Assembly (NCBI RefSeq): GCF_002858865.1
Contig: NZ_PJRR01000013.1
Coordinates: 186,001-250,000 of the forward strand
Direction of reading: 5' to 3'
Length of the DNA: 64,000 nt
Source: Caulobacter vibrioides
GTDB taxonomy: Bacteria > Pseudomonadota > Alphaproteobacteria > Caulobacterales > Caulobacteraceae
Numbering within the stretch: the first letter of the stretch is position 1; the number at the start of each line of letters is the position of its first letter. The translations under genes and the position numbers were made by a program. Under the pieces are notes generated by a model that was given only the letters and a program-made list of their open reading frames with translations, was not told the origin of the DNA and did not search any database. Positions 1,987 through 15,231 of the stretch are shown here, one piece after another.

Positions 1987-2319
1987 TCAGTCGATGACCG
2001 CGAACTTGCCCTTCTCAAAGACCCGCAAGACCTGGGTCAGCTCATGGCCGCGCTTGAGGATCTGGCCGCCCTGGCCATAGACGGCCCACGCCCCTTGCTT
2101 GCGCGCCAGGGCCGGACGCTTTTCCACCCGGTAGAGCGGAGCCTCGGCCGCATGGCGAAAGATGGAGAAGACGGCGCTCTCGGATAGCCCGGCGATGCCG
2201 TAGTCGCGCCACTCCCCGGCCGCCACCATGCGACCGTAGAGGCGCATCAACTGGTCGAGCTCGCGCCGCTCGAAGAAGACGACGCCCCCGTGGGGCGCGG
2301 ATGAGGACTCCAGGGCCAT
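1987..2319 (-). CDS. DUF2794 family protein
   Basis: A small cytoplasmic protein of 110 residues with no signal peptide or membrane segment. It matches the alphaproteobacterial DUF2794 family in length and in the central pattern FFERRELDQLMRLYGRM and EWRDYGI followed by a basic stretch (YRVEKRPALARKQGAW). The function of the family is unknown. The gene is convergent with the Bax-inhibitor gene, and its promoter must lie in the gene-free stretch above 2320. Confidence 0.85.
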   Translation of the reverse strand: MALESSSAPHGGVVFFERRELDQLMRLYGRMVAAGEWRDYGIAGLSESAVFSIFRHAAEAPLYRVEKRPALARKQGAWAVYGQGGQILKRGHELTQVLRVFEKGKFAVID

Positions 2320-2419: not shown

Positions 2420-2434
2420 GACCTTAATTCGGTC
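2420..2434 (+). promoter_or_regulatory. Palindrome in front of small-RNA candidate 1
   Basis: GACC-N7-GGTC lies 37 bases (start to start) before a CGATAA element at 2457-2462. The same palindrome with the same 37-base spacing recurs at 2661-2675 before the second small-RNA candidate. If CGATAA acts as a -10 element, the palindrome is centred near -43, where a class II activator or a repressor would bind. The identity of any binding protein is unknown. Confidence 0.45.
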
Positions 2435-2469
2435 CTTCGCCCGCCTGTTTGCGGGTCGATAAGATCAAT

Positions 2470-2609
2470 GTCGGCTGATCGGAGACCCTGTGGTCCAGGA
2501 TCCTGAACAGCCCCCCCAGCCCCCCAGATCATGGGCCGGTCAGCCGACAAACCTATATCCCCTCCCCGAGATGAGCCCGCGCGGACCACCCCCACCGCGC
2601 GGGCTTTTT
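2470..2609 (+). ncRNA. Candidate small RNA 1 of a tandem pair (C-rich loop, own terminator)
   Basis: No gene on this strand precedes it, yet it ends in a perfect intrinsic terminator (GCCCGCGCGG 2575-2584 with CCGCGCGGGC 2595-2604, then TTTTT). A 9-bp stem joins 2470-2478 to 2540-2548 and encloses a hairpin GACC-CTGT-GGTC and a single-stranded C-rich segment (2502-2525, CCTGAACAG then seven C). A further unpaired stretch carries CCCCTCCCC (2560-2567). Such C-rich loops can pair with Shine-Dalgarno sequences, as described for several alphaproteobacterial small RNAs. The 5' end is inferred from the CGATAA element. Expression is not proven. Confidence 0.5.
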
Positions 2610-2660
2610 CGCGCGTTATCGGCCGCCCCGCCACGAGACGGCCACGCTCCGCCGTGAAAC

Positions 2661-2675
2661 GACCTTGTTTTGGTC
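2661..2675 (+). promoter_or_regulatory. Palindrome in front of small-RNA candidate 2
   Basis: CGACC-TTGTTTT-GGTCG (2660-2676) is the second copy of the palindrome at 2420-2434. It again lies 37 bases before CGATAA (2698-2703). Conserved spacing between two otherwise diverged copies argues for a shared regulator. Confidence 0.45.
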
Positions 2676-2709
2676 GATCCCCCGCCCGGTTGGGCCACGA
2701 TAAAAGAAG

Positions 2710-2828
2710 GGTCGAAAGCGACCGGACCGGGTCCTGACCAGCCCCCCCAGCCCTCCCGGTCAAACAAGCGGTCGTCTTCGGCTTGCAAAGGACCCGCGCG
2801 GCTCGTCCCCTCCAGCCGCGCGGGTTTT
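2710..2828 (+). ncRNA. Candidate small RNA 2 of a tandem pair (C-rich loop, own terminator)
   Basis: Similar in layout to candidate 1, 241 bases downstream. It has a GTCG-AAAG-CGAC hairpin (2711-2722) and a 7-bp stem GACCGGG/CCCGGTC (2725-2731 with 2755-2761). The loop of that stem exposes CCTGACCAG and seven C; 24 bases here match candidate 1 with two differences. A CAAGC/GCTTG hairpin follows, then a terminator CCCGCGCGGCT/AGCCGCGCGGG (2793-2803 with 2814-2824) and TTTT. The terminator loop reads CGTCCCCTCC. The surrounding 528 bases (2320-2847) contain no protein gene. Confidence 0.5.
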
Positions 2829-2847
2829 GCTTGCCCGCTTTTCGGGA

Positions 2848-3591
2848 TCAGCGCTTGGCTTCGCCGGCGCTCTGCAAGACGCCCAGGATCCGGCCGCCCT
2901 TGGCGCCCTGGACCAGCACCACCGTCACCAGATCAGCGTCATTGGCGGCGGGCAGGCGATAGAGCTTGGGCTTGCCGGCCCAGGGACCCAACCTCACCAG
3001 CTCACGGACGACATTGCGGTGAACCAGGGTCTGGCCCTTGTTGTCACCGCGCTTGATGGCGATGTCCTGCTCGCGCGGGTCGTAACGCACCAGCCAGACC
3101 TCGCCGCCGCCACGCGGGGCCGGGCCCGAACCGACCGCGACGCGGGCCGCGCCGATGAATTGCATGTCCGGCGGGTTCAGGCGGGCGCGAGCGGCCGTCT
3201 TCACCAGGTCCTCGACCGCTTCGGCCTTGGTCCCGGAAGCCTGGACACGGCCGGCCACGACCATCTGCGGGGTGGGCACGTCGCGCAGGGCGAACTTCTT
3301 GGCGTAGGCGCGCTGGCGTTCGGCGAAGACCGGCTTGGCGAAGGTGTCCTTCCAGCCCAGATAGTCCCAATAGTCGACCGCATAGGTCAGGGCCAGGACC
3401 CCGTCCTGCTTGGCGAGGTCCGCGGCGACCTGATTGGCCTTGCCGCACGACGAGCAGCCTTGAGCCGTAAAGAGCTCGACCACCACGGGCGGCTTTTGAG
3501 CCCACGCGACACCCCCCCACGACAGGGTGGCGACGACGCCGGACAAAACCAGGCTGAACAGGGAAAGGGCGGCCTTACGCATTGAGCGCAC
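2848..3591 (-). CDS. Exported DUF1223 protein with thioredoxin-like fold
   Basis: A 247-residue exported protein. Residues 1-31 form a signal peptide (basic MRSMRKA, hydrophobic core, cleavage near GVAWA-Q). The mature part starts like a thioredoxin fold, VVVELFTAQGCSSCGKAN, with a CxxC pair, and continues with YAVDYWDYLGWKDTFA and VPTPQMVVAGR, the pattern of DUF1223. Family members are probably periplasmic redox or metal-handling proteins, but no reaction is established. It stands alone, with acnA upstream on the same strand behind a terminator. Confidence 0.87.
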   Translation of the reverse strand: MRSMRKAALSLFSLVLSGVVATLSWGGVAWAQKPPVVVELFTAQGCSSCGKANQVAADLAKQDGVLALTYAVDYWDYLGWKDTFAKPVFAERQRAYAKKFALRDVPTPQMVVAGRVQASGTKAEAVEDLVKTAARARLNPPDMQFIGAARVAVGSGPAPRGGGEVWLVRYDPREQDIAIKRGDNKGQTLVHRNVVRELVRLGPWAGKPKLYRLPAANDADLVTVVLVQGAKGGRILGVLQSAGEAKR

Positions 3592-15005: not shown

Positions 15006-15231
15006 GTCGCAAAACGCCAGCCTGTCGCCCAGGGTTTACCCCTTGCGCTGGCCGCAGCTTCACCCAATATCTGTTGTGCGGGCCGGGCCCCTCTGACGAC
15101 CCTCGTGCTGAAAAGCGCGATCGTGATGTCGGACCGCGTCGGGCGCGCCCGGCGTTGGGTCCAAGGGTCGCCCCCCCCCGAACCCCGCCAGCCCGGTGTC
15201 AGGCGCGCCCTCCCAACAGAGGAGAGCAAAC

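Follow-up and report, generated by a model that had tools for sequence, protein, structure and literature searches.

The window analysed here, a stretch of 64,000 nucleotides from Caulobacter vibrioides, carries two small RNA (sRNA) units one after the other on the plus strand, between the minus-strand genes for a DUF2794 protein and a DUF1223 protein. An aconitase region also adjoins both units. No protein gene of the plus strand runs into them, as the original prediction had stated: Bax1-I ends at position 1902 and is followed by its own hairpin and T-run, and DUF2794 and DUF1223 are both read from the minus strand. Pfam gave no family for the four mechanically called open reading frames that overlap the units. 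A simple scanner reported neither a terminator on the plus strand nor a promoter of the sigma-70 type at either unit; both terminators went uncalled because the scanner has a loop limit of 8 and the loops here are 10 nt long. Elsewhere in the window a terC RNA (RF03067, 51.5 bits) lies at 15075-15141 on the plus strand. The features of the locus are the following:

1987-2319, minus strand: DUF2794 gene (PF10984, 137.9 bits), the divergent neighbour, which marks the locus in other alphaproteobacteria
2420-2434, plus strand: promoter palindrome of unit 1, GACCTTAATTCGGTC, from an exact-pattern search of the genome and aligned in relatives
2457-2462, plus strand: CGATAA, the probable -10 element of unit 1, at the same spacing as in unit 2 and missing in some species
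2470-2605, plus strand: unit 1, the sRNA CC3664 (RF01530, 168.3 bits, E 2.8e-29, matched end to end)
2470-2548, plus strand: 5' hairpin of unit 1, from folding and from covariation in 43 hairpins
2503-2519, plus strand: apical CUG-AACAGCCCCCC-CAG of unit 1, from folding; the exact 21-mer surrounding it is found in at least 119 genome-contig stretches
2559-2567, plus strand: single-stranded linker of unit 1, CCCCTCCCC, unpaired in the fold and present in close relatives
2575-2609, plus strand: terminator hairpin of unit 1 with loop ACCACCCCCA and T-run (fold of -23.1 kcal/mol, z -5.2)
2661-2675, plus strand: promoter palindrome of unit 2, GACCTTGTTTTGGTC, from the exact-pattern search of the genome
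2698-2703, plus strand: CGATAA, the probable -10 element of unit 2, spaced as in unit 1
2711-2782, plus strand: 5' hairpin of unit 2, from folding, covariation in 17 unit-2 sequences and a 30-bit match of the CC3664 model
2734-2750, plus strand: apical CUG-ACCAGCCCCCC-CAG of unit 2, from folding and as direct repeat D1
2792-2829, plus strand: terminator hairpin of unit 2 with loop CGTCCCCTCC, from folding, CCCCTCC being unchanged in all 17 copies aligned
2848-3591, minus strand: DUF1223 gene (PF06764, 199 bits), the convergent neighbour, found beside BjrC174 too (235 bits)

Whether the candidates were already catalogued had been left open. Unit 1 is a member of RF01530 (CC3664), its 168 bits standing against a gathering cut-off of 60 bits; the BjrC174 model (RF02355) gives the same unit 28.1 bits (E 0.0036), below the 45-bit cut-off of that family. 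Rfam makes no call for unit 2 here. This unit (about 2711-2829) is a tandem copy that has diverged: the CC3664 model aligns with it over the full model length at 2713-2826, at 30 bits against the same cut-off of 60, and it has another stem and a changed loop. Unit-2 copies do exceed this cut-off in the genomes G035, G033 and G021 (74, 64.3 and 61.4 bits; genome and locus numbers, G and L, are our own). By its gene number CC3664 presumably lies beyond R0090 on the chromosome, and since R0090 is at 3.88 Mb, CC3664 is probably R0091 or R0092. We do not use this equation as evidence. In the accessible parts of the papers, the level of R0092 varies 23-fold over the cell cycle (PMC3829707), R0092 has an internal start site and a role reported as unknown (PMC8224329), and the Hfq table is without R0091 and R0092 (PMC11005374).

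The 5' hairpin of unit 1 folds at -40.2 kcal/mol (z -4.5, none of 200 shuffles being equally stable) and that of unit 2 at -34.4 kcal/mol (z -2.1, 6 of 200), with z values of -7.0 and -4.7, respectively, when the terminators are included. In both units the C-rich motif sits at the apex of the hairpin and is thus held in a loop, as had been proposed. The two copies of this 24-base motif indeed differ at exactly two positions; they lie 231 bases apart and not 241, a spacing that does hold for the palindromes (2420 and 2661) and for the CGATAA elements (2457 and 2698). The terminator hairpins are GC-rich; both of their loops are C-rich and contain CCCC on the plus strand, in agreement with the original prediction, and the T-run of unit 2 is the weaker one (TTTTGCTT).

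Covariation in related genomes was assessed in two alignments. Alignment A1, which draws on unit 1, unit-2 copies of one clade and lone copies, holds 43 of the 60 hairpins found; 5 duplicates were removed, as were 12 hairpins whose ends were over-extended or which folded differently. Changes on both sides were seen in 9 of its 27 pairs, a count that none of 500 shuffles reached, and 93.5% of cells are paired vs 21-47% in slid controls. Alignment A2 comprises 17 of the 18 unit-2 copies from the clade of our genome; the copy of L007, which folds otherwise, was omitted. Here both sides change in 8 of 38 pairs (18 of 500 shuffles) and in 28 cells (0 of 500), and 92.2% of cells are paired vs 33-41% when slid, with further pair types not rising above the shuffles. 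Covarying stems were thus found in both alignments.

One promoter element, GACC-N7-GGTC, is common to both units, and in each of them CGATAA begins exactly 37 nt downstream of the first base of the palindrome. In the 3.97 Mb genome the exact pattern GACCTTNNTTYGGTC is found only twice, once at each unit. Allowing up to two mismatches gave 167 sites vs 140 for the reversed control in the same genome, which are therefore mostly background, and at the eight one-mismatch sites (L156-L163) no C-rich hairpin was seen within the 160 nt inspected. Across 17 loci of the clade of our genome (L001, L004-L017, L019 and L022), the exact element stands ahead of 16 unit-1 copies and 9 unit-2 copies; in other clades unit 2 carries at most traces of it. 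The common element suggests co-expression of the two units in their own species, where a single regulator would be predicted. A response of the two RNAs to different signals, raised originally as a possibility, looks less likely in this genome because element and spacing are common to both; elsewhere control may have drifted apart, given the 9 of 17 against 16 of 17. The sigma-ecfG consensus consists of GGAAC and CGTT 16-17 nt on. A GGAAC, which L008, L012 and L049 have as well, is found at 2350-2354, about 115 nt upstream and without CGTT 16-17 nt on.

To what extent is the pair kept within the genus? RF01530 matched 59 of 61 genus genomes at E 0.1 and scored over its cut-off in 47 of the 61. 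Tandem matches, meaning two or more on one strand within 600 nt, were counted by hand from the match table in 33 of the 61 genomes, and reading of the loci showed the tandem in G050, G007, G056 and G030 as well. As the exact promoter pattern is unique to both places and the tandem recurs in 33 of 61 genomes, the pair is not due to chance. Conservation, covariation and the one Rfam match bear out the claim of two paralogous sRNA candidates side by side. Three tandem units are present in G036 (L044).

The exact 21-mer at the apex of unit 1, CCTGAACAGCCCCCCCAGCCC, was found in at least 119 genome-contig stretches. Carriers among the 80 matches listed belong to Brevundimonas, Phenylobacterium, Asticcacaulis, Caulobacter, Peiella and higher-rank bins (Caulobacteraceae, Caulobacterales, or named only Alphaproteobacteria, Proteobacteria, Pseudomonadota or bacterium). 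The 80 loci listed hold 81 core places, 63 of which have a divergent DUF2794 gene within 3.5 kb (61 of them at 132-251 nt); DUF1223 was seen at 33 and the aconitase C-terminus at 27 of the 81, many of these loci ending at contig or fetch ends. A second same-strand match within 600 nt to R1, a model built from Caulobacter hairpins alone, was detected in 7 of the 80 loci listed, six titled Caulobacter (L233, L244, L247, L249, L287 and L292) and one from a Proteobacteria bin (L276). None of the two-match loci among the 80 is titled Brevundimonas, Phenylobacterium or Asticcacaulis, and five further loci titled Caulobacter (L238, L246, L250, L253 and L284) have one R1 match. This distribution makes one copy beside DUF2794 look like the ancestral state, with the tandem apparently derived within Caulobacter.

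Lone copies are also found in other surroundings. Those of L037-L042 and L052, in genomes of the genus, are preceded by another motif (such as CCCCAATCCGGGCAAG), and no terminator is evident immediately behind them. At L043, L053, L055, L056, L062 and L034 a single-copy sRNA is followed directly by a short-chain dehydrogenase gene, which L034 and L062 thus have in common with some Caulobacter loci. The lone copies of L226, L227, L257, L279, L280 and L291 were considered as gsrN and rejected, as no ecfG- or phyR-like neighbour was recognised by eye among open reading frames of at least 110 aa, a limit above the size of nepR genes.

The two units also differ in their loops. A single search expression applied to L001-L056, loci that partly overlap for our own genome, found 53 apices that read CTGAACAG followed by a C-run; the others read CTGTCCAG (13), CTGATTG (7), CTGACCAG (6) and CTGCCCAG (1), and among the loci read these changed forms belong to unit-2 copies. 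The unit 2 of L045 keeps AACAG. So do all five unit-2 copies in L024 and L028-L031, where a T interrupts the C-run. The loop of unit 2 is therefore changed in most copies read, in differing ways. Decay of unit 2 into a functionless duplicate would account for this variation and for that of its promoter element among species, as well as for the diverged stem, the Rfam score under the cut-off and the weak T-run. We nevertheless regard such decay as very improbable: the second copy is retained in at least 33 of the 61 genus genomes, its stem shows compensatory changes, the terminator loop keeps CCCCTCC in 17 of 17 copies and the promoter element is intact in our genome.

The locus can be followed beyond the Caulobacteraceae. 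L071, from a genome of another family, carries BjrC174 (RF02355, 175.5 bits) upstream of DUF2794 in the order Bax1-I / GNAT acetyltransferase / DUF2794 / BjrC174 / DUF1223, and the window has the same order and orientation minus the acetyltransferase. BjrC174, known from Bradyrhizobiaceae, is thus orthologous by position. It also resembles the units in its long stem and its CAGCCCCC-AGCCCCCC apex, whereas the sequence outside the apex has mostly diverged and one copy was seen in the locus. Rfam keeps CC3664 and BjrC174 as two families and lists a clan for neither. Run on 289 genomes of the class, the BjrC174 model gave four matches, none over the cut-off: three, in G068, G183 and the window, stand divergent from DUF2794, and the fourth, in G202, lies on another contig than its DUF2794. 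The same model scores 35.9 bits (E 0.0043) beside DUF2794 in L101. Conversely, BjrC174 had no match to the Rfam CC3664 model at E 0.1, and R1 recognised it at 22.3 bits (E 0.034).

DUF2794 is present in 172 of 290 class genomes. In 89 of these loci, a part of the total that omits our own genome (L068) and includes two near contig ends that were rechecked (L067 and L070), we searched for the apex with the expression C4+(A/AA/AG/AAG/TAG)C3+, which was written after the first matches had been seen. At 150-420 nt upstream of DUF2794 the motif was found on the divergent (forward) strand in 20 of the 89 loci vs 2 of 89 on the reverse strand, and other intervals gave 0, 1 and 2 forward and 1, 0 and 0 reverse loci; it is missing at the remaining 69. 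The 20 positive loci cover 12 families outside Caulobacteraceae by the family codes of our tool, to which L062 adds f100. R1 supports nine of these 13 families, five of them at E below 0.1.

When R1 was run on the window and 75 loci (199 kb) it returned both units of the window, one antisense match of unit 1, and ten matches beside DUF2794 (L061, L062, L074, L071 with BjrC174, L086, L101, L089, L080, L077 and L082; L061 and L062 had originally been found through R1). Their E values range from 5.6e-5 to 1.6, five being below 0.1, against a background of four window matches at E 0.95 to 3.4, with L128 the next locus to appear, at E 4.1. Taken singly, the weaker matches among the ten are not significant; the evidence lies in their position. 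Given 73 of the 89 DUF2794 loci, all from other genomes, R1 found the expected hairpin in 8 of 17 motif-positive loci and in 1 of 56 motif-negative loci (E 4.1), and it missed the other 9 motif-positive ones. At E 0.01 it matched 6 of 385 class genomes, all of the same order as ours except G400. A second model, R2, built from 13 hairpins of the class outside Caulobacter, gained no base pairs and remained sequence-only, and it found nothing in the window. On account of the common slot (Bax1-I / DUF2794 / sRNA / DUF1223) and of R1 pointing to the BjrC174 hairpin, CC3664 and BjrC174 appear to be a single old sRNA, duplicated in Caulobacter. In L092, of another family, the hairpin also stands in tandem beside DUF2794 (minus strand, 1241-1300 and 1048-1108), apparently an independent duplication; in G421, of the same family, the R1 matches do not adjoin DUF2794. 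Strong hairpins with TCCTCC(C/T) loops occupy the same slot upstream of DUF2794 in L112 and L117 and are possibly further diverged members.

What could these RNAs do? Their most likely function appears to be the one modelled for GsrN: acting in trans by pairing with G-rich leaders. GsrN (CCNA_R0081), the general stress sRNA, likewise has a 5' hairpin with a C-run loop and then a terminator; in the accessible text of PMC5869019 it activates katG, and the six cytosines of its 5' loop are favoured by the authors as the chooser of G-rich mRNA targets. CcnA (CCNA_R0094) is alike in having a C-run loop, and the part of PMC8959179 available to us proposes that its CCCC pairs with GGGG in the leaders of ctrA and gcrA; it differs in lying in the replication origin, at a different locus, and in its length of 182 nt. 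Identity of the units with GsrN itself we reject on grounds of locus (DUF2794, DUF1223, aconitase) and promoter: outside C. crescentus, GsrN homologues typically lie near ecfG/nepR/phyR and have a sigma-ecfG site, whereas the units here lie beside DUF2794 and have another promoter element.

Searches with the 11-nt complement of the unit-1 loop and with an extended complement found no convincing target in our genome, where the only 11-nt site is the antisense of the sRNA itself. Fifteen genomes of the genus gave 38 such sites, self sites included, vs 17 for the reversed control. The longer complement had 49 non-self sites with two or three mismatches vs 28 for the control, and self sites only with none or one. 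Of 28 inspected non-self sites, 3 lay close to an ATG that could open a frame of at least 120 codons, a figure that comes without a null. That no perfect complement exists besides the sRNA's own counts against a single dedicated target and leaves room for recognition by a protein. The C-rich loop could then be read by a C-binding RNA-binding protein, or the RNA could be a decoy for it. The exact 21-nt core would fit such a reader, being kept in at least 119 stretches, those listed coming from Caulobacteraceae, Caulobacterales or higher-rank bins. We think this unlikely, however: many short imperfect contacts with mRNAs would likewise hold the loop constant, GsrN offers a precedent for pairing by a C-rich loop, and no candidate protein was found. 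A more specific version, in which the constant loop on its replaceable stem is a widely kept recognition element or decoy for a dedicated factor, possibly the DUF2794 protein itself, and the duplication doubles the decoy, seems to us highly improbable. The AlphaFold model of the DUF2794 protein (pLDDT 85.8) had no PDB fold match at E<=0.001, and its sequence had no PDB match at E 1.

Another alternative is that a sponge rich in G and A, such as CrfA, binds the units and so makes them regulated RNAs of the CrfA network. According to the accessible part of PMC12559287, CrfA sequesters four alphaR8 sRNAs, SisA-D, by pairing with their CCUCCC-containing core, and CCCCTCC(CC) stands in the linker or terminator loop of both our units. 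The partners reported there are SisA-D, however, and neither unit carries the alphaR8 core UUUCCUCCCU, so we give this alternative hardly any credence. The missing core also led us to reject membership of the units in the alphaR8/Sis family, whose members resemble them as alphaproteobacterial sibling sRNAs with a CU-rich seed and are scattered in C. crescentus, not in tandem.

We therefore return to pairing with mRNAs. One factor would drive both units at GACC-N7-GGTC, each stem would present an open C-rich loop, and this loop would pair with several mRNAs through short imperfect contacts at their G-rich ribosome-binding regions. A second anti-Shine-Dalgarno-like stretch could be provided by CCCCUCC, which lies in the linker or the terminator loop. 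Since the loop of unit 2 has changed, its targets would probably overlap those of unit 1 only in part. The earlier suggestion of a partly redundant pair fits in so far as unit-1 loops read AACAG plus a C-run while unit-2 loops vary.

Taken together, the two units are homologous, have stable and covarying structures and a conserved position, and share a promoter element in their own genome. We consider it likely that they are two separately transcribed, intrinsically terminated, trans-acting sRNA genes, the product of a tandem duplication in the genus Caulobacter. The duplicated gene would be an old sRNA of alphaproteobacteria, divergent from DUF2794 and known as CC3664 in Caulobacter and as BjrC174 in Bradyrhizobiaceae. 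Unit 1 and BjrC174 are already known, both being in Rfam. Our literature searches found no paper linking CC3664 with BjrC174, and none on searching CC3664 by name; the name BjrC174 led to one paper. Within the reach of these searches three results are new: that unit 2 is a conserved paralogue in tandem with unit 1, that the two units have a promoter element in common in this genome, and that CC3664 and BjrC174 are orthologous by position next to DUF2794. Two orphan Rfam families would thereby be joined into one sRNA kept beside DUF2794, and a model genus would offer a tractable pair of paralogues for studying the role of a fixed C-rich loop and the division of targets between duplicated sRNAs.
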